Part shown: piece after piece, positions 5,138 to 29,592 of the stretch | Position numbering within the stretch: position 1 is the stretch's first letter | Layout of the letters: each line of letters begins with the position of its first letter | Assembly: GCA_021806645.1 (NCBI GenBank) | Contig: JAJZQX010000006.1 | Location: 186,001 to 250,000 of the forward strand | Length of the DNA stretch: 64,000 nucleotides | Direction of reading: 5' to 3' | Origin: Myxococcales bacterium | GTDB taxonomy: Bacteria > Myxococcota > Myxococcia > Myxococcales > Anaeromyxobacteraceae | Made by a program: the position numbers and the translations under genes | The notes under the pieces: model-generated | Told to the model about the DNA's origin: nothing | The model's database searches: none | Seen by the model: only the letters and a program-made list of their open reading frames with translations

Positions 5138-7057
5138 CTGATCCCCGACGAGGTCATCGAGGAGGTCAAGGCCCGCGTGGACGTGGTGGCGCTGATCGGC
5201 CGCCACGTCGAGCTGAAGCGGGCCGGACGGACGTGGAAGGGCTGCTGCCCCTTCCACGGGGAGCGGACGCCGAGCTTCCACGTCTACACCGAGGACAAGC
5301 ACTACAAGTGCTACGGGTGCGGCGAGCACGGCAACGTCTTCACGTTCTTGCAGAAGCTGCAGGGCAAGGAGTTCCCGGAGGTGGTGCGCGAGCTGGCGGC
5401 CGAGGTGGGGATCGAGATTCCCGAGGCCGACGCGCAGGAGACGGCCGAGGCGCAGCGCCGCCGCAAGGAGCGGAACGAGCTCCAGGCCGCCTGCGAGGCG
5501 GCCGCCCGCTACTGGGCGGCGCGGCTGGGCAGCAGGTGGGGGAAGGACGCCCGGGGCTACCTGGCGTCCCGGGGCGTGGCGGAGGAGCAGGTCAAGGCGT
5601 TCCGCCTGGGGGTGGCGGCGCCGGGATGGGACGACCTGTTGCCGCGGTTGAAGGAGAAGGGGATCGGCGAGGCGGCGGTGGGCAAGGCCGGGCTGCTGGT
5701 GGAGAAGGACGACGGCCGGAGCTACGACCGGTTCCGTGGACGGTTGATGTTCCCGATCGCGGGGCTCGATGGGCAGGTGATCGGGTTCGGCGGGCGGGCC
5801 ATGGGCGAGGAGAAGGGGGCGAAGTACCTCAACACCCCCGAGACCCCGCTCTACAAGAAGAGCCGCGTGCTCTACGGGCTCGACCTGGCGCGCGAGGCGA
5901 TCCGCAAGACGCGGACCGCGGTGCTGGTGGAGGGGTACTTCGACGTGATCGGGCTGCACCAGGCTGGCGTGAAGAACGCCGTGGCGGTCTGCGGCACGGC
6001 GCTGACGCCGGAGCACGTGGAGCTGCTGAAGCGCTGCGACTGCCGCGAGGTCACGGTCCTGTTCGACGGCGACTCGGCCGGCCTGGCCGCGCCCGCCAAG
6101 GCGGCCGCCGCGCTCTTCCCCTCCGGCCTGGCCGGCAAGGTGGCCCTGCTGCCGGCCGGCGACGCCAAGCTGGACCCCGACGACTTCGCCCGCGCCCACG
6201 GCAAGGCCGGCGTCGAGGCGCTGCTGGCGGCGGCGCTGCCGCTCTCGCAGTTCCTCATCGACCGCGCGGTGGAGAGGACCTGCGGCGCCGAGCCGAAGAC
6301 GGCCGCGCTGGAGGCCAAGCTGGCGGCGGTGGCCGAGCTGGCGCCGCTGGTGAAGCTGGCGCCGGAGGGGCTGGCGCGCGGCGTCTTCGAGGAGGCGGTG
6401 GCCCGCAAGCTCGACCTCGACCTCGAGGCGCTGCGGCACGAGCTGGCCGGGGTCCGTCCGGCGCGGGTCGAGGAGCCGCCAACCCAGGCCGATGAACCGC
6501 CGTCCGAGCCGGGCTGGTCGTCGTCGTCGGTATCCGGGGCGGGCGGAGGCTGGCGGCGCGAGCGGCGCCCGGGGCAGGCCACCCAGGCGGCCACGTCGCG
6601 CCAGCGGGTCCAGGCGGTGCTGCCCGGGCCGGCCGTGGACGCGCTCAGCCTGCTGATCGCCTGGGGCGACCTGGCCCCGGTGGCCGCCGACGAGAACCTC
6701 CCGGCGCTGCTCCCGGCCGGGCCGCTGGCCGAGCTGGCGCGCGATCTGATCCGCGAGCCGATGACGCGGGAGGCGGCGCTGGCCCGGCTGGCCGAGGCGG
6801 CCGAGCCGCTGCGCCGTCGCGTCGAGGCGCTGACCGGCCCGGGCGGCGTGGAGCGGGGCGTGGCCGAGCGGCTGCTGCGGCGCGCCGCCATCAAGGCGGC
6901 CATCGGCGCGGTGGTGGCGCAGCAGGAGCGCTGCAACGCCCGCATCGCCAGGGGCGGCTCGCCGGTGGCGGACGACCTGCGCATCGAGGCCGAGGTGGCG
7001 ATGCGGCGCCGGGCCGAGCTGGAGAAGCGGTTGCGGGGGCTGGAAAGCGGCGGCTGA
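5138..7057 (+). CDS. dnaG: DNA primase, apparent CTG start
   Basis: DnaG lays RNA primers at the replication fork. The CHC2 zinc ribbon (CCPFHGERTPSF ... CYGCGEHGN) is near residues 40–65, and the TOPRIM core has VEGYFDVIGLHQAG and the metal-binding LFDGDSAG; a DnaB-binding C-terminal region follows. The first ATG/GTG/TTG in frame is GTG at 5177, but the codons before it already encode the conserved N-terminus (IPDEVIEEVKAR). The codon immediately before that is CTG at 5138, four bases after an AGGGGAG Shine–Dalgarno. I therefore place the start at CTG (639 residues). If only GTG 5177 is used, the conserved N-terminal strand is lost. Confidence 0.9.
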   Translation: MIPDEVIEEVKARVDVVALIGRHVELKRAGRTWKGCCPFHGERTPSFHVYTEDKHYKCYGCGEHGNVFTFLQKLQGKEFPEVVRELAAEVGIEIPEADAQETAEAQRRRKERNELQAACEAAARYWAARLGSRWGKDARGYLASRGVAEEQVKAFRLGVAAPGWDDLLPRLKEKGIGEAAVGKAGLLVEKDDGRSYDRFRGRLMFPIAGLDGQVIGFGGRAMGEEKGAKYLNTPETPLYKKSRVLYGLDLAREAIRKTRTAVLVEGYFDVIGLHQAGVKNAVAVCGTALTPEHVELLKRCDCREVTVLFDGDSAGLAAPAKAAAALFPSGLAGKVALLPAGDAKLDPDDFARAHGKAGVEALLAAALPLSQFLIDRAVERTCGAEPKTAALEAKLAAVAELAPLVKLAPEGLARGVFEEAVARKLDLDLEALRHELAGVRPARVEEPPTQADEPPSEPGWSSSSVSGAGGGWRRERRPGQATQAATSRQRVQAVLPGPAVDALSLLIAWGDLAPVAADENLPALLPAGPLAELARDLIREPMTREAALARLAEAAEPLRRRVEALTGPGGVERGVAERLLRRAAIKAAIGAVVAQQERCNARIARGGSPVADDLRIEAEVAMRRRAELEKRLRGLESGG

Positions 7058-7159
7058 CCGGGGCCCAGGAGCCCCGCGGCGAAGGATGGCCGGGCCAGCC
7101 AGAAGGCCCGCGGTTAGTGATCACGGAAGCAGCACCGAAGTCCAAGGAGTCGAGCGATC

Positions 7160-9421
<2,262 letters not shown>

Positions 9422-22634: not shown

Positions 22635-23102
22635 CTAGCCGGTCGCGGGTGGCGACGAGCCGTGCCGTCGCACCAGCTCAACCGCCAGCCGCGCGGTGGC
22701 GGTCGGATCGCCCTCGAACTGGACGCCGACGCGCCGCGTCTCCCGGGAGGCGTGGCGGACCACGCACCAGGCGGTGGGACGGTCTGGCAGGTGGGGGAGG
22801 CGCAGCCGGGCCCGGGCGCCGGGCTGGAGCGGATGATCGAGCTCGAGCAGCGCGCCACCCTCGGAGATGTCGCAGACGCGGACCAGGTGCGTGCCCTCGT
22901 CGACGTCGAGCCGCGCCTCGCAGTCCACCGGGTGGCGGAGGAAGCGGCGCTGCCGCTGCTTCAGCCAGCGCCGCTCCTCGCGGAGGGCCGCCTCGACCAC
23001 GGCCGAGTGGGGGACGGCCAGCGCCGCGTCGATCCGGCGGCGATCGTCGGCCAGGGTCCGGGCCTCGGGGAGCCAATCCTGGGCGTCGTCGATCCCGCTC
23101 AT
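22635..23102 (-). CDS. PilZ domain protein
   Basis: The 155-residue cytoplasmic protein has a PilZ fold with the c-di-GMP-binding pair: an RxxxR motif in RRFLRHPV (~residue 53) and the DISEGGALLEL motif (~79), followed by VGVQFEG. An N-terminal helical segment of ~45 residues precedes it. Both nucleotide-binding motifs look complete, so it probably senses c-di-GMP; the output is unknown. It lies directly downstream of the corrinoid operon on the same strand (9-bp gap) and could be co-transcribed. Confidence 0.85.
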   Translation of the reverse strand: MSGIDDAQDWLPEARTLADDRRRIDAALAVPHSAVVEAALREERRWLKQRQRRFLRHPVDCEARLDVDEGTHLVRVCDISEGGALLELDHPLQPGARARLRLPHLPDRPTAWCVVRHASRETRRVGVQFEGDPTATARLAVELVRRHGSSPPATG

Positions 23103-23111
23103 GCCGGTGGA

Positions 23112-23933
23112 TTATGGCACGGGGCGAACGTTCGGCAGCACCACGGTGGCGCCGGTTGCCTGGTTCTGCCCCCGCCAGACCGGGACGCCCCAGACGTCGC
23201 GAACGCGCTCCTCGGTGAGCACGTCGGACGGGCTCCCCTCGGCCACCACCCGGCCGCCAGCCAGCGCCACCAGCCGGTCGCAGGCGGCCGCCGCCAGGTT
23301 GAGGTCATGCAGCACCGCCACCACGCAGAGCCCGCCGCGCGCCGCCACCCGGGCCATCTCCATGGCCGCCACCTGGTGCGCCAGGTCGAGGAAGGCGGTC
23401 GGCTCGTCGAGCAGCAGCACCCGCGGCTCCTGCGCCAGGGCGCGGGCGAAGAAGACCCGGCGCCGCTCGCCACCGGAGAGGGCGTCGACGCGCCGGCCGG
23501 CCAGGTGGAGGAGGTCGCAGGCGGCCAGCGCCCCCTCGACGGCGCCGAGATCCTCGCGGGTGGGGATGGCCAGCAGCCCCTGGTGCGCCGTGCGCCCCAT
23601 CATCACCACGTCACGGACGGTGAATGGCCAGTCGAGCCGCGGCTCCTGCGGGACCAGCGCGCAGACCCGGGCCACCAGCCGCCGCGGCGTGGCGTGCGGG
23701 TCGAAGCCAGCCAGCCGCACCGTGCCGGCCGAAGGCGCCAGCAGCCCGGCCACCAGCCGGATCAGCGTGGACTTGCCGGCGCCGTTGGGGCCGAGCAGCC
23801 CCACGAACTCGCCCTCACGCGCCGTGAACGAGACGCCGTCCACCGAGACCCGCGCGCCGTAGGCGTGGCGGACGCCGCGCACCTCGACGATCGGATCGGG
23901 CCAGGGCGGCCCGGGCAGCCGGAGCGGGCTCAT
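23112..23933 (-). CDS. btuD: Corrinoid/siderophore-type ABC transporter ATP-binding protein
   Basis: The ATPase of an importer, 273 residues. Walker A GPNGAGKST, Q-loop VPQEPRLDW, signature LSGGERRR, Walker B LLLDEPTAFLD and the switch HDLNLAA are all intact. It is closest to the BtuD/HmuV/FecE group. Its ATG abuts the permease stop. Assignment to vitamin B12 rests on the cobalamin riboswitch and TonB receptor at the head of the same overlapping gene run, not on the ATPase sequence itself. Confidence 0.9.
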   Translation of the reverse strand: MSPLRLPGPPWPDPIVEVRGVRHAYGARVSVDGVSFTAREGEFVGLLGPNGAGKSTLIRLVAGLLAPSAGTVRLAGFDPHATPRRLVARVCALVPQEPRLDWPFTVRDVVMMGRTAHQGLLAIPTREDLGAVEGALAACDLLHLAGRRVDALSGGERRRVFFARALAQEPRVLLLDEPTAFLDLAHQVAAMEMARVAARGGLCVVAVLHDLNLAAAACDRLVALAGGRVVAEGSPSDVLTEERVRDVWGVPVWRGQNQATGATVVLPNVRPVP

Positions 23934-24986
23934 CTAGTTCCCCTCCGCCTGCTGGCGCGCCTGGCGCCGGAGCAGCCAGAGGAAGAACGGCCCGCCCAGG
24001 AAGGCGGTCACCGCCCCCACCGGAGGCTCGGTGCCGAGCGGCAGGAAGGCGAGCCGGGCCAGCGCGTCGGCGGCCACCAGGAAGGCGGCGCCGAAGAGGG
24101 CCGAGGCCGGGAGCAGCAGCCGGTGGTCGGGGCCGACCACCCGCCGCACCAGGTGCGGGACGATCAGGCCGACGAAGCCGACCATGCCGGCCAGCGCCAC
24201 GGCGGCGCCGGTGGCGGCCGAGGCGGCGAAGAAGACCAGCGCGCGGGTGCGGCGGACGTCGAGCCCCAGCGAGGCCGCCTCCTCGTCGCCGAGCGTGAGC
24301 AGGTTGAGCCGCGCCGAGAGGAGCGCCAGCGCCCCCACCGAGAGGACCACCAGCACCGTCCCGACCGCCAGCGTGGTGGGGGACTCGTAGCCGATGGCCC
24401 CCATCAGCCAGTAGAGGAGGCGCGCGGCCTGGTCGGGCGGCGCCAGCATCTTGAGCAGCGTGATCACGCCGGCCACGAAGGCGTTGAAGACGATCCCCAC
24501 CAGCAGCGCCGCCTCTGGCACCAGGCGGCCGCCGATCCGGCCGAGGCCGAAGACCAGCAGGGTGGCGAGCATGGCGCCGGCCACCGACCCGACCGCCACC
24601 GGCGGCGCCGACCCGAGCAGCGCCCCGGCCGGCCCGGCCACCGCCGAGAGGCCGGCGGCCGCCAGCAGCACCAGCGTCCCGCCCAGCGCCGCGCCGCCCG
24701 AGACGCCGAGCACGAACGGCTCGGCCAGCGGGTTGCGCAGCAGGGCCTGCAGCGCGGTCCCGGCGGCGGCCAGGGCGAAGCCGACCACCGCCGCCAGCGC
24801 GGCGCGCGGCAGCCGCAGGCCGAAGAGGATGGCCCGGTCGGGCTCGACCCCGTCGAGCGCGGCGCGGAGCGAGATGGGCTGGGGGCCGAGCAGGCAGGAG
24901 ACCGCCACCGCCGCGACGATGGCCAGCAGGCCGAGGCCGAGCGCCAGCACCAGCCGTGTGCGCGGGACGCCGCTAACCGAGGTCAT
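23934..24986 (-). CDS. btuC: FecCD/BtuC family permease
   Basis: The 350-residue inner-membrane permease has about ten hydrophobic segments. It shows the family motifs LRLPRAALAAVVGFALAAAG, LRNPLAEPFVLGVSGGAALG, and near the end GFVGLIVPHLVRR, the coupling region for the ATPase. Start ATG 24986 overlaps the stop of the upstream binding-protein gene (ATGA). Confidence 0.92.
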   Translation of the reverse strand: MTSVSGVPRTRLVLALGLGLLAIVAAVAVSCLLGPQPISLRAALDGVEPDRAILFGLRLPRAALAAVVGFALAAAGTALQALLRNPLAEPFVLGVSGGAALGGTLVLLAAAGLSAVAGPAGALLGSAPPVAVGSVAGAMLATLLVFGLGRIGGRLVPEAALLVGIVFNAFVAGVITLLKMLAPPDQAARLLYWLMGAIGYESPTTLAVGTVLVVLSVGALALLSARLNLLTLGDEEAASLGLDVRRTRALVFFAASAATGAAVALAGMVGFVGLIVPHLVRRVVGPDHRLLLPASALFGAAFLVAADALARLAFLPLGTEPPVGAVTAFLGGPFFLWLLRRQARQQAEGN

Positions 24987-25900
24987 CTTGCCTGGGGTGG
25001 AGCGCCCGGTGGCGCCCCGCGCAGGGCCTGCTCGAGATCGACCAGCGCTTCGACCATGCGTGGGCCGGCGCGCAGCAGATCGTCGCGCGGCAGCCGCGCC
25101 ACCGCCCCGCGCCGCACCGCCGGGATGGCCGCCAGCCGCTGGATGCCGCCGGCCGGCTCGTCGAAGGCGGCGTCGATGACGAGATCGGGGTTGGCCGCCA
25201 CCGCCAGCTCCAGCGGGTAGACCGGCCACGGCCGCACCCCGCCCACGGCGTTCTCGGCGCCGGCCAGCCGCAGCAGCTCGTCGGGGAAGGAGCCGGGCCC
25301 AGCCACCACCAGCGGCTCCCGCCCCACCACGAAGAGCACCCTCGGGCGCGGCCGTCCGGCCGAGCCGGCGCGCAGCCGGTCGAGCGCCCCCTGCAGCCGG
25401 GCCGCCAGCGCCGCACCGGCGGCCGGCTCACCGATCGCCTCGGCCACCAGCCTGGCCGCGGCCGGGACGTCGGCGAGGGTGATCACCGGGATGGCCAGGA
25501 TGGCGAAGGAACCGCCCGAGAGTTCGCCGAGGCGCCGCACCGCCGCGAGCGCGCCGCCGTCGGTCACCCAGAGGACGAGATCGGGCTTTAGCCCCAGCAC
25601 CGCCTCCGGCGACGGGTCGAGGAAGCCGCCCACGCGGGGGCGCCCGGCCACCTCCGGCGCGTGGTCCACCCGGGTCACGCCGACGATCCGATCGGCGGCG
25701 CCGAGCGCGACCAGGTAGTCGGTCATGCTGGGCGCCAGCGTCACGATCCGCCGGGCGCCGCCGGCCGGGGCATGTCCCACCCAGATGGCGCCACCCGCCG
25801 CCGCCCCCTTGGCGGAGACGGGCAGCAGCTCGCCCCCCACCGCCGGCGAGGCGGCGAGGGCGAGCAGCGCCAGCAGGGCGGGGCGGAGGAGCCGGGTCAT
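24983..25900 (-). CDS. btuF: Periplasmic corrinoid-binding protein (BtuF-like)
   Basis: The 305-residue protein starts with a signal peptide (MTRLLRPALLALLALAASPA). It continues with the cluster A-3/BtuF pattern: RRIVTLAPSMTDYLVALGA, VGVTRVDHAPE, VGGFLDPSPEAVLGLKPDLV, then a second lobe with LVVAGPGSFPDELLRLAGAE. It hands the ligand from the periplasm to BtuC. Overlaps of 4 bp link it to the lipoprotein gene upstream and btuC downstream. Confidence 0.9.
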   Translation of the reverse strand: MTRLLRPALLALLALAASPAVGGELLPVSAKGAAAGGAIWVGHAPAGGARRIVTLAPSMTDYLVALGAADRIVGVTRVDHAPEVAGRPRVGGFLDPSPEAVLGLKPDLVLWVTDGGALAAVRRLGELSGGSFAILAIPVITLADVPAAARLVAEAIGEPAAGAALAARLQGALDRLRAGSAGRPRPRVLFVVGREPLVVAGPGSFPDELLRLAGAENAVGGVRPWPVYPLELAVAANPDLVIDAAFDEPAGGIQRLAAIPAVRRGAVARLPRDDLLRAGPRMVEALVDLEQALRGAPPGAPPQAR

Positions 25901-27411
25901 GGGCGCGAGGCGCAGGCGACGTCGGCGGCCCAGGCGTAGCCATAGGGCGGCGCGCTCGAGGGGCAGACCGGGATGGCGGCGGCGGGAGAGGCGGCGAAGT
26001 TCACGGGATCGAACGGGTAGACGTCGCCGCTCCGCTGGTCGGTGACGAAGCCATGGTCGCCACAGAATGCCACGTTCCCGGGGGAGGTGACGGCCGCCGG
26101 GTGGACGGCGACCAGCACCGGCGCCGCGCCGGAGAGGTCCACCTCGGCGAGGCCGCCGGCGCCGCATGCCACCCACAGCGACGTTCCATGAACGGCGAGT
26201 CCGCCCGGGTTGCCGCAGGCGGCACTGAGCGAGAAGAAGCTGACCGAGGTGTCGATCGGGTCGATGACCGCCAGCCTGCCCGGGCCGGCCGGGTCGGTGA
26301 AGTAGCCGTAAGCACCCTTCTTCAGGTTGGCCAGCGCCACGTAGACCTTGCCGCCGACGGTGATCGATCGGCCGGGGAAGGCGAGGCCGGGGGCGTCGGC
26401 GCCACCGGAGACGTCGATGCTGCCGAGCGCGGTGAGACAGTTGGCCGGGCCACCGGGCTGGCCGCAGGTGTAGAGCCCGGCGGCGTTGAGCACCGCCACC
26501 TTCTGGCCGATGGTCGGGTCGCCCGAGACCGAGTCGCCGTACAGGGAGACGAAGGCCAGCTCGATCCCGGGGCCGGTGGCGAAGGCGATGCCCTTGACGT
26601 TCTCCGCGGCCGACTTGCCGACCGGGACCTCGTCGAGCACGGCGCCGGTGGCCGGATCGACCACCACCACCGTGCCGGCGCCGGCGTTGGAGATGAGCAC
26701 GCGGCCGGCGTGCGTGGCGATGTACTCGAAGTCGTTCCCCGCGAGCAGGTACTCGGTAGGCGCCACGGCCAGCTCCACTGGGAGGCGGATGAGCGAGCCG
26801 GAGATGGAGGCGGCGGCCCAGATGTCGGCGCCGAGGGTGGTGAGGGCGATGGGGCCCACGCCCGCGGCGCGCGGGGCGGCGCCGGTGGTCGGCTCGAGCG
26901 GCTCGACCGCCCGGACCTCGTTGACCGAGAAGCAGGCGACCTGGAGCGAGGAGCAGCTCCCGGCCAGGCAGGACTCGCCGGTCACGCAGCCCTTGCCGCA
27001 GGCGCCGCAGTTGAGCCGGTCGGAGGCGAGCGTGACGCAGGCGGCGCCGCAGGCCGAGGTCCCGGCGGGACAGTCTAGGACGCAGGCGGTGGCGCCGCCG
27101 CTGGTGCCGCAGACGGAGCCGCTGGCGCAGGCGTTGGCGCAGGCGCCACAGTGAGCCGGATCGGTGGCGAGGTCCACGCAGGTCGAGCCGCACAGGGACT
27201 GGCCGGTGGGGCAGGCGCAGGCGCCGGCCTTGCAGATGGTCCCGCCGGCGCAGGCGTTGGCGCAGGCGCCGCAGTTGGCCGAGTCGGTGGCGAGGTCGAG
27301 GCAGGCGTTGCCACAGAGGGCCTCGCCGGCTGGGCAGGTGGTCTCCTTCTGGCAGCCGGAGAGGGCGGTGAGCGCGGTCAGGGCCGCGACGACGAGGAGT
27401 GAGCGGTTCAT
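25897..27411 (-). CDS. Cys-rich beta-propeller lipoprotein in corrinoid operon
   Basis: A 504-residue lipoprotein. The signal peptide ends in a lipobox (LTALSGC, Cys near residue 20). Residues ~24–155 hold three ~41-residue Cys-rich repeats of the type CPxGxxxCGxxCxxLxxDxxN followed by CGACxxxC; these are common in myxobacterial surface proteins. From ~165 to the end the chain forms short strand repeats (VLISNAGAGTVVVVDPATGA, KVYVALANLKKG, LAVIDPIDTS, SLWVACGAGGLAEVDLSG), typical of a YncE/NHL-like beta-propeller. It lies between the TonB receptor and BtuF with 4-bp overlaps on both sides. A surface B12-capture role, analogous to BtuG of Bacteroides, is inferred from architecture and position; sequence homology to BtuG is not claimed. 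Confidence 0.82.
   Translation of the reverse strand: MNRSLLVVAALTALTALSGCQKETTCPAGEALCGNACLDLATDSANCGACANACAGGTICKAGACACPTGQSLCGSTCVDLATDPAHCGACANACASGSVCGTSGGATACVLDCPAGTSACGAACVTLASDRLNCGACGKGCVTGESCLAGSCSSLQVACFSVNEVRAVEPLEPTTGAAPRAAGVGPIALTTLGADIWAAASISGSLIRLPVELAVAPTEYLLAGNDFEYIATHAGRVLISNAGAGTVVVVDPATGAVLDEVPVGKSAAENVKGIAFATGPGIELAFVSLYGDSVSGDPTIGQKVAVLNAAGLYTCGQPGGPANCLTALGSIDVSGGADAPGLAFPGRSITVGGKVYVALANLKKGAYGYFTDPAGPGRLAVIDPIDTSVSFFSLSAACGNPGGLAVHGTSLWVACGAGGLAEVDLSGAAPVLVAVHPAAVTSPGNVAFCGDHGFVTDQRSGDVYPFDPVNFAASPAAAIPVCPSSAPPYGYAWAADVACASRP
27124..27270. repeat. Intragenic direct repeats coding for Cys-rich units
   Basis: The 24-bp block at 27124–27147 (ggcgcaggcgttggcgcagg...) recurs exactly at 27247–27270, 123 bp (41 codons) away. 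It is the DNA trace of the duplicated Cys-rich repeats of the lipoprotein. Confidence 0.85.
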
Positions 27412-29336
27412 GGCGTTCCTTCGGTGTGGGGGGTGGTGGGGGAGGAGCCGGCGCGGAGGGTGAGCAGCACCATCCGCGACGGGAGGGGGTTTCCGAGGCC
27501 GTCGGTGAGGGTGCGATCGTCGAGCAGGTTCTTGACCTCGGCGTGGAGGCTCACAGCCAGCGGCCGGTAGAGCGTCACGGCGGCGCCGGCGTTCCAGAGC
27601 AGCGTTGCCGGGATCGGCTCGACGTTCCGCGTGTCGGAGAAGCGCCGGCCGACGTAATGGGCCTCGACGTGCAGCTCGAACCGCCCCGGCGCGGCGGTGG
27701 CCCGGGCGTAGAGCCGCTGCCGCGGCCGGTAGGGGACCTGGTTCCCGACCTCGTCGGTCCGTCCCTTCAGCAGCTCGGTGAAGAGGAAGGTGTACGCGCC
27801 GGAGAAGGTGGCGCGGGCCAGCCCGAGCATGGGGGCGGTGGCCAGCTCGGCCTCGATCCCGGCCACCAGGGCCTGCCCGGAGTTGAAGGGCTGCAAGCGC
27901 CAGCGCCAGGTGGGCTGGTAGAGGATGAGGTCGCGGTAGCGGGTGACGTGGCCGCCCAGCGTGGCCAGCCCGAGCGGCCCGTCGGCCACCAGCGAGGCGT
28001 CGGCCGCCAGGCCGGTCTCCGGCACCAGGTCCGGGTTGGGCGTCACCAGCCCTTGCTGGAAGTAGAGCTCGGCCAGGCTGGGGGCGCGGAAGGAGCGGCC
28101 CGCGCTGGCCCGCACCGACCAGCCGTCGCCGAGCCGCCACGAGCCGCCCAGCTTGCCGGAGAGGCCGGAGAAGGGGCCGACGGCGTCGAACCGGAGCGCG
28201 GGGGCCACCCGCAGCCGGGCGCCGAGGAGCAGCAGGTCGTCGCCGACCGCGAGCCCGGTGGACCAGCGGGTGAGGGCCGACGGGAGGCCACCGGCCTCGA
28301 CGGTCTCGGCCTCGGCGGAGAGCTGCGCGGAGAGCTGGCCGGCGCCGTGGGACCATCCGAGTTCGGCCGCGGCTCCGCCGGCCGCGCCGCGCTGGCGGTA
28401 CGGGACCGGATCGCCGGCGCGGACGTCGAGCCGGTCGAACCGGCCGCTCACCCGGCCGCCGAGCGTGAGGCCGCCGGGTCCGCCTCGGGCGTAGCGCGCC
28501 GCCACCAGGAGCCGGCCGTCGCGCTGCCAGTCGTCGGGAGTCGGGTTCCTGGCGAAGCCGGGCAGGCCGCGCCGCCCCGCCGACGCCTGCACCACCGTGT
28601 CGAGCCACCCGTCGAGCACCGGGACCGAGAGCTTCGCCAGCGCCCCGGCCCGCCTCGCGGCGCCGTTCTCCCGCTCCCGCGCCACCAGCGGATCGCCGGG
28701 CAGCGTCGGCGTCGGGTCGTAGAGGTAGGGGAAACGGCCGTCGGTGGTGTCGCCGCTCCCGGCCAGCAGCAAGGTGCCTCCCAGCGCCGCCACCGCGCCG
28801 TCGGCCGCCAGCGAGGCGCTGCCGAAGGAGCCACCGGTGGCCTCGGCCGACCACTGGTCCGCCGCAGCCCGCCGGGTGACGACGTTGACCACGCCGCCCA
28901 GGGCGCCGGCGCCGTAGAGCGCCCCCTCGGGCCCGCGCAGCACCTCGATCCGCTCGATCCAGCCGCGCGGGATGGAGGAGAGATCGACGGCGCCGCCGAA
29001 GGCCGAGTTGAGCGGCAGGCCGTCGAGCAGCACCAGCACGCCGTCGGCGGTCGAGCCGCGGATGGAGACGGTGGTGAGCTGGCCGAGGCCGCCGTAGTCG
29101 TTGATCGCCACGCCGGGCGCGGTGGCCACCAGCTGGGCCACGTCCTTGGCCTCGCCGGCGAAGCGCGACGCCTCGATGACGGTGGCCGCGCCGGTCGGAT
29201 CTCCCGCCGCCTCGGTGCGCGGCACGCGGACCACCTGCTCGTCCATGACGACGGGAGGCGGCTCCTCGGCGCGAGGGGTCGTTGCGACGGAAAACGAAAG
29301 GGCGAGAACGCCCAGGAACGGGATCTTCGAGCGCAA
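27408..29336 (-). CDS. btuB: TonB-dependent receptor, BtuB-like
   Basis: An outer-membrane gated channel, 642 residues. After a signal peptide (RSKIPFLGVLALSFSVATTP) come the TonB-box region and the plug domain (DVAQLVATAPGVAINDYGG, SIRGSTADGVLVLLDGLPLN, IERIEVLRGPEGALYGAGAL, GGVVNVVTRR). A long beta-barrel follows. The ligand is taken as a corrinoid because a cobalamin riboswitch precedes it. The start is placed at TTG 29336, ten bases after AAGGAG, because the frame is open through the riboswitch but cannot start there. The stop overlaps the lipoprotein start by ATGA. Confidence 0.92.
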   Translation of the reverse strand: MRSKIPFLGVLALSFSVATTPRAEEPPPVVMDEQVVRVPRTEAAGDPTGAATVIEASRFAGEAKDVAQLVATAPGVAINDYGGLGQLTTVSIRGSTADGVLVLLDGLPLNSAFGGAVDLSSIPRGWIERIEVLRGPEGALYGAGALGGVVNVVTRRAAADQWSAEATGGSFGSASLAADGAVAALGGTLLLAGSGDTTDGRFPYLYDPTPTLPGDPLVARERENGAARRAGALAKLSVPVLDGWLDTVVQASAGRRGLPGFARNPTPDDWQRDGRLLVAARYARGGPGGLTLGGRVSGRFDRLDVRAGDPVPYRQRGAAGGAAAELGWSHGAGQLSAQLSAEAETVEAGGLPSALTRWSTGLAVGDDLLLLGARLRVAPALRFDAVGPFSGLSGKLGGSWRLGDGWSVRASAGRSFRAPSLAELYFQQGLVTPNPDLVPETGLAADASLVADGPLGLATLGGHVTRYRDLILYQPTWRWRLQPFNSGQALVAGIEAELATAPMLGLARATFSGAYTFLFTELLKGRTDEVGNQVPYRPRQRLYARATAAPGRFELHVEAHYVGRRFSDTRNVEPIPATLLWNAGAAVTLYRPLAVSLHAEVKNLLDDRTLTDGLGNPLPSRMVLLTLRAGSSPTTPHTEGTP

Positions 29337-29385: not shown

Positions 29386-29592
29386 GTGGCCTGCTCGAAG
29401 GGAGGTCTCCTGGCTCCCGGGGCCGCGCACGACGGATGGCCGTCGCCGCTCGCCGCCTTCCACCTTCCCACCGCTAAACGGCCGCGGCAGTGGTGACTGC
29501 ACTGAAGGCGACTTCTCCCCGGCTACAGTGGCGGGACCGCGCCGGCTTCTGACCGGACTTCCCTGATCCTCCGAGCGGGTGCTGCAGGCCAC
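29386..29592 (-). promoter_or_regulatory. Cobalamin riboswitch (AdoCbl-type element)
   Basis: On the minus strand this 207-nt segment holds the hallmark parts in order: GGGAAGTCCGGT, the core CGCGGTCCCGCCACTGT, and the B12 box AGCCAGGAGACCTCCC. Stem P1 closes it perfectly over 9 bp (29584–29592 with 29386–29394). Downstream, 29383–29390 can pair with 29370–29377 (8 bp), overlapping the 3' strand of P1. A 6-bp stem (29342–29347 with 29355–29360) places the AAGGA of the Shine–Dalgarno in its loop. This suggests B12-dependent control of translation of the receptor and, by coupling, of the whole operon. Confidence 0.95.

Follow-up and report, generated by a model that had tools for sequence, protein, structure and literature searches.

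A propeller lipoprotein paired with a BtuB-like receptor in Myxococcota, a candidate functional counterpart of BtuG

The closest described system is that of BtuG in Bacteroides, a surface lipoprotein with a seven-bladed propeller that binds B12 (BtuG2 is BT1954; BtuG structures are PDB 3DSM, 8BMY and 8BAI) whose gene adjoins btuB in loci headed by cobalamin riboswitches (PMC6143338, PMC10404256). BtuG homologues have been reported only in Bacteroidetes (PMC6143338), and TonB transporters capped by a lipoprotein are stated to seem exclusive to that phylum (PMC10404256). BtuH and BtuJ/DUF4465 are likewise accessory surface lipoproteins that bind B12 and belong to riboswitch loci, but they have other folds and are not propellers (DUF4465 is a beta jelly-roll). 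DUF4465 occurs in Myxococcota too (PMC13398666), and the survey of that domain is the only place in the literature where we found BtuG and Myxococcota mentioned together.

A probable B12 import operon in an apparent corrinoid scavenger

The window, that is, the whole 64,000-nucleotide stretch of a Myxococcales contig that was analysed, contains an operon on the minus strand that invites comparison with this system. A preliminary description had placed in it, at 25897-27411, a propeller lipoprotein overlapping a TonB receptor and BtuF by 4 bp each, behind a cobalamin riboswitch; the observation is confirmed, and the coordinates proved exact. The riboswitch aptamer (RF00174) lies at the head of the operon at 29403..29564 (minus strand; cmscan 60.2 bits, gathering threshold 31.5; alignment with 25 relatives). 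It is followed by the receptor gene at 27408..29336 (minus strand), which most likely starts with the TTG at 29336, where a Shine-Dalgarno-like GAAGGAG stands just 5' and the product would begin MRSKIPFLGVLALSFSVATTPRA. The receptor has Pfam Plug and barrel domains, and its best NCBIfam match is the TonB-B12 model TIGR01779 (E 3e-48); because the 165 bits of this match fall below the equivalog cut-off of 599.7 bits, we call it BtuB-like, on context. The genome has no other receptor of this kind.

The lipoprotein gene (minus strand, ATG at 27411, stop at 25897, 504 amino acids) shares an ATGA with the receptor's TGA (27411-27408) and, through its own TGA, another with the start of btuF (25900-25897). 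A third ATGA (24986-24983) joins the stop of btuF to the start of btuC. The BtuF-like periplasmic binding protein (24983..25900, minus strand) matches Peripla_BP_2 at 62 bits and the BtuF model NF002894 at 63 bits, the latter below cut-off; the BtuC-like permease (23934..24986, minus strand) matches FecCD at 263 bits, with BtuC as its best NCBIfam matches; and the BtuD-like ATPase (23112..23933, minus strand) finds its best NCBIfam match in the corrinoid ABC transporter ATPase PRK09536. Behind btuD comes a PilZ-domain gene (22635-23102, minus strand), which at least two relatives of the genus (L041, L052) have retained in this position.

The genome, 99% complete, yielded no CbiC in a search that was positive in 7 of 14 control genomes. 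It does contain 14 matches to B12-binding domains, as well as a single other cobalamin riboswitch (L219:5914-6112, equivalent to G000:C23:91914-92112, minus strand), and the genes under the latter read as CobU-, CobT- and CbiB-like salvage genes. Since CbiC is lacking while B12-domain proteins and salvage genes are present, the genome looks, from its gene content, like that of a corrinoid scavenger that would require imported corrinoid.

The lipoprotein itself has three parts. It starts with a signal peptide, MNRSLLVVAALTALTALSG, followed by the lipid-modified Cys20 (27352..27411, minus strand), so that the lipobox seen in the preliminary description, LSGC, is indeed there; a lipobox is nearly universal among the relatives (82 of 95 by a strict rule). 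Residues 25-154 (26950..27339, minus strand) form three Cys-rich repeats, again as described earlier, with eight cysteines in each and exceeding the cut-offs both of the NCBIfam model for MXAN_6577-like Cys-rich proteins (NF041328, 115 bits over residues 9-153, cut-off 100) and of Pfam Stig1 (PF04885, 59 bits, cut-off 24). These two families have only the Cys-rich part in common with our protein and are uninformative on the propeller or its role. The remainder, residues 155-504 (25900..26949, minus strand), is the predicted propeller.

A predicted propeller that does not single out BtuG

At the sequence level, the propeller announces itself only through a single YVTN repeat (TIGR02276). None of the Pfam or NCBIfam models describes the domain: TIGR03866, for YncE-like and PQQ-ABC-associated propellers, scores 11.7 bits where the curated cut-off is 287, and a phmmer search of the single protein against the PDB gave no match. 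Structure prediction is far more telling. With 26 orthologues as input, AlphaFold2 returned a complete seven-bladed propeller by DSSP (pLDDT 92.2, pTM 0.92), bearing out the fold that had been proposed, with the ring predicted to close at blade 7, for which the C-terminus supplies strand A and the N-terminus strands B-D.

Which propellers does it resemble? By Foldseek and VIA-align, the archaeal surface-layer protein 1L0Q comes first (Z 35.5), followed by lactonases (31-32), BtuG structures (27-30) and YncE (27-28). 1L0Q is also the best profile match (E 7e-20), so that propellers of the YVTN/YncE type (1L0Q; E. coli YncE, 3VGZ) provide the nearest relatives by profile and structure alike. To our knowledge, these have no link to B12. 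The myxobacterial family is set apart from them by conserved cysteines and by the motifs NL..Y..PAGxG, CxNPG and ACFxT. The seven-bladed fold is thus a well-supported prediction, yet one that does not single out BtuG among propellers.

The comparison with BtuG itself is mixed. Both are lipobox-bearing lipoproteins with a seven-bladed propeller (here predicted; rmsd 2.6-2.9 at the Z-scores just given), and in both cases the gene adjoins a btuB-like receptor under a cobalamin riboswitch. On the other hand, identity is 10-16%, the host belongs to the Myxococcota, and the myxobacterial protein has a putative Cys-rich stalk, several cysteines within the propeller and, among its orthologues, circular permutants. 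DUF5074, the Pfam family of BtuG, was matched by one of 26 members at E 0.013, short of significance, and had no match in the genome, where control genomes were positive; hhalign against BtuG fragments gave a probability of 8.5%, a weak match. Distant descent from BtuG, which the preliminary description had allowed for, is therefore rejected on the weak profile match and the DUF5074 result, with other propellers fitting the fold at least as well. Nor can rank in the structural comparison confer membership, as many unrelated propellers tie.

Conservation on the surface of the ring offers a more functional comparison. In an alignment of 64 sequences, conservation is higher in the B-C/D-A loops on one face than in the A-B/C-D loops on the other (means of 1.65 versus 1.11 bits, P ~6e-4), and the 45 most conserved positions include 17 on the former face versus 2 on the latter. 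Published B12 contacts of BtuG2 are Trp194, Tyr239, Trp272 and Tyr316 (PMC10404256); placed from BtuG sequences, Trp194 and Tyr239 fall in B-C loops and Trp272 in a D-A loop. The conserved face is therefore the same as the contact face of BtuG2, with residues that are not pairable at 10-16% identity, and we regard this agreement as suggestive only, D-A loops being generically conserved in YVTN propellers.

Pairing with the receptor and rotation of the ring

A peptide-pattern scan of genome contigs reached only two near relatives, and profile searches were adopted for that reason. Using the propeller only, we found a homologue in all 23 other genomes of the family, while the propeller profile matched 145 of 147 genomes at the level of the class. 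At the level of the phylum it matched 169 of 195 genomes, where many of the weak matches may be other propellers. A plasmid search gave no match. We annotated 109 loci, 95 of which had a match strong enough for classification.

In 93 of these 95, other classes of the phylum included, the gene immediately upstream, in the same orientation, encodes a BtuB-like receptor; only L198, at a contig edge, and L113 depart from this. The btuB neighbourhood expected from the preliminary description is thus conserved phylum-wide. BtuF follows the propeller in 71 of 109 loci, and the commonest order puts the propeller gene between btuB and btuF. A riboswitch stands upstream of the receptor in 27/31, 49/60 and 11/18 loci of three locus sets. 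It seems to be absent upstream of the pair at L042, L043, L101, L103, L108, L128, L146 and L152, some of which are second copies (several other misses are contig edges); for such pairs the ligand is less certain, and ligand or control may differ. Because the arrangement recurs throughout the phylum it is far beyond chance, bearing in mind that the loci share descent, so that a count of loci is not a count of independent events. What carries weight is the persistence of the pair in several classes against a changing background of flanking genes. Receptor and propeller occur without btuF, btuC or btuD alongside at about 15 loci (e.g. L042, L043, L101, L102, L146, L147), and in the four genomes with two loci (G006, G019, G109, G119) the two copies separate in the same way in the receptor tree as in the propeller tree. 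As the pair persists without the other transport genes and duplicates as a unit, the propeller tracks BtuB, which points to the receptor as its partner, as in the btuB-btuG pairs of Bacteroides (PMC6143338).

At six loci of other Myxococcota (L196, L199, L201, L202, L204, L206) a more divergent propeller, with VVTSDYxTGS... and GAGTNPQDIAV motifs, follows a BtuB-like receptor, mostly with a cobalamin riboswitch; it may represent a second subfamily in the same slot.

Orthologues in the btuB-btuF slot do not all open the ring at the same place. A doubled profile combined with a rotation scan distinguished four openings: phase 0, the window type, closing in blade 7 (74 loci); phase ~36, closing in blade 1 (5 loci, f11); phase ~156, closing in blade 3 (14 loci from f5, f7 and part of f3); and phase ~216, closing in blade 4 (2 loci, f10). 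The three openings besides the window type are found at L067, L070, L133-L141, L143-L145, L190-L195 and L198. Individual proteins make the rotation easy to see: the C-terminal end of the L190 protein, WAACFATDKV...GDGPVAL, corresponds to the start of the window type, and the L195 protein opens with the CLNAG block, its last block being the counterpart of the window type's NL..PAGPG. Slippage between repeats might mimic such an order. We rejected it since the rotation scan favours the other phase by ~14-55 bits over phase 0, blade motifs are distinct and appear in rotated order, and the phase-156 protein of L067 is predicted to have 28 strands in seven blades closed at blade 3 (AlphaFold2, pLDDT 88.6, pTM 0.88). 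A quick tree of the receptors requires at least four changes of phase, and in it the phase-156 members of f3 fall, with starred support, inside a group of phase-0 relatives.

The permuted forms also speak to the Cys-rich part, which had been read as either a stalk or a redox/metal module. Its motifs are present in 70 of 74 phase-0 proteins versus none of the 21 permuted ones, and copy number differs among relatives. Because all 21 permuted orthologues do without it, the Cys-rich part looks, from sequence comparison, like a dispensable stalk; the redox or metal reading fares badly on the same grounds. That it might be the functional core is rejected, given its loss in permuted forms and its presence elsewhere in the genome without a propeller. 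Two open reading frames of the same genome (L071 ~6494-7135, minus strand; L072 ~6746-7525, plus strand) have more copies of the repeat and no propeller match.

A lid for BtuB?

We consider it likely that the protein is a functional counterpart of BtuG, a capture or lid partner of BtuB. The observations behind this reading are gene order, the lipoprotein signal, the predicted fold, pairing and co-inheritance with BtuB, the riboswitch and the need for B12 import. Imagine the propeller anchored by its lipid at the outer membrane, exposed at the surface and in complex with the BtuB-like receptor, on a stalk of variable length that disulfides would stiffen. Corrinoid would bind on the ring face formed by the B-C and D-A loops and pass to BtuB for TonB-driven import, BtuF-BtuCD would carry it further inward, and plentiful B12 would turn the operon off through the riboswitch. 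The role is weakened by the fact that likeness to BtuG in fold and sequence is no greater than to other YVTN/YncE-type propellers. Of the parallel drawn in the preliminary description, then, what stands as plausible, from the predicted propeller and the phylum-wide neighbourhood, is that the protein probably works like BtuG; that it is a BtuG does not follow, given the DUF5074 result, and we do not call it one.

The weakest step is surface exposure, and it is here that the main rival enters. The lipoprotein might face the periplasm, anchored either in the outer membrane's inner leaflet or at the inner membrane, and ferry corrinoid from the periplasmic side of BtuB to BtuF. A gene between btuB and btuF would suit such a carrier, as would the Lys found at +2 of the lipidated Cys in 8 of 82 relatives, a residue that at this position is commonest among inner-membrane lipoproteins of M. 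xanthus (PMC3222651). Yet at the roughly 15 loci mentioned above BtuB and propeller occur with BtuF not adjacent, BtuF elsewhere functions without such a carrier, and stalks of variable length are commoner on surface proteins, which makes a periplasmic carrier unlikely in our judgement. We know of no established surface-export signal in Myxococcota, a point in the carrier's favour. Pro occupies +2 in 35 of 82 relatives, and in family f4 (L100-L106, L109-L111, L119-L125, L146-L148, L152-L159) a CP[DEP][EST]G-like motif is conserved from the lipidated Cys onwards and might serve these myxobacteria as a signal for lipoprotein sorting or for export to the surface.

Alternatively, the propeller might not capture ligand at all and instead assist assembly or gating of BtuB, or act as an enzyme, perhaps one that processes corrinoids or resembles a lactonase. 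Propellers are versatile, folds of the BamB, YncE and gluconolactonase type match as well as BtuG, and many invariant residues of the propeller are cysteines, structural in appearance; against this, pairing is near-universal with one type of receptor rather than with barrel assembly in general, enzyme family models all stay below cut-off, and conserved positions concentrate on one loop face, so that we find an accessory role decidedly improbable. Barely credible, finally, is an operon that imports cobalt or a cobalt complex with the propeller as metal chaperone: cobalt importers of other bacteria are also under cobalamin riboswitches and Cys-rich repeats could bind metal, but the known route by which cobalt feeds corrin-ring synthesis is closed without CbiC, a B12-transport model is the best match for each of receptor, permease and ATPase, and the permuted orthologues all lack the Cys-rich part.

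Returning to the reading as a capture lid, we tentatively suggest, at somewhat less than an even chance, that Myxococcota evolved a lid of this kind, a lipoprotein over the B12 receptor, independently of Bacteroidota, and that its ring was permuted several times in the same operon slot. If true, the blade at which the membrane tether joins the ring would differ between forms, so that the position of the hinge would vary while the ring face towards BtuB is conserved, and the circular permutants would be natural experiments on how important tether position is for a lid. A phylum-wide BtuB-propeller pair would then make transport through a capture lid a recurrent solution and a test case for convergence.
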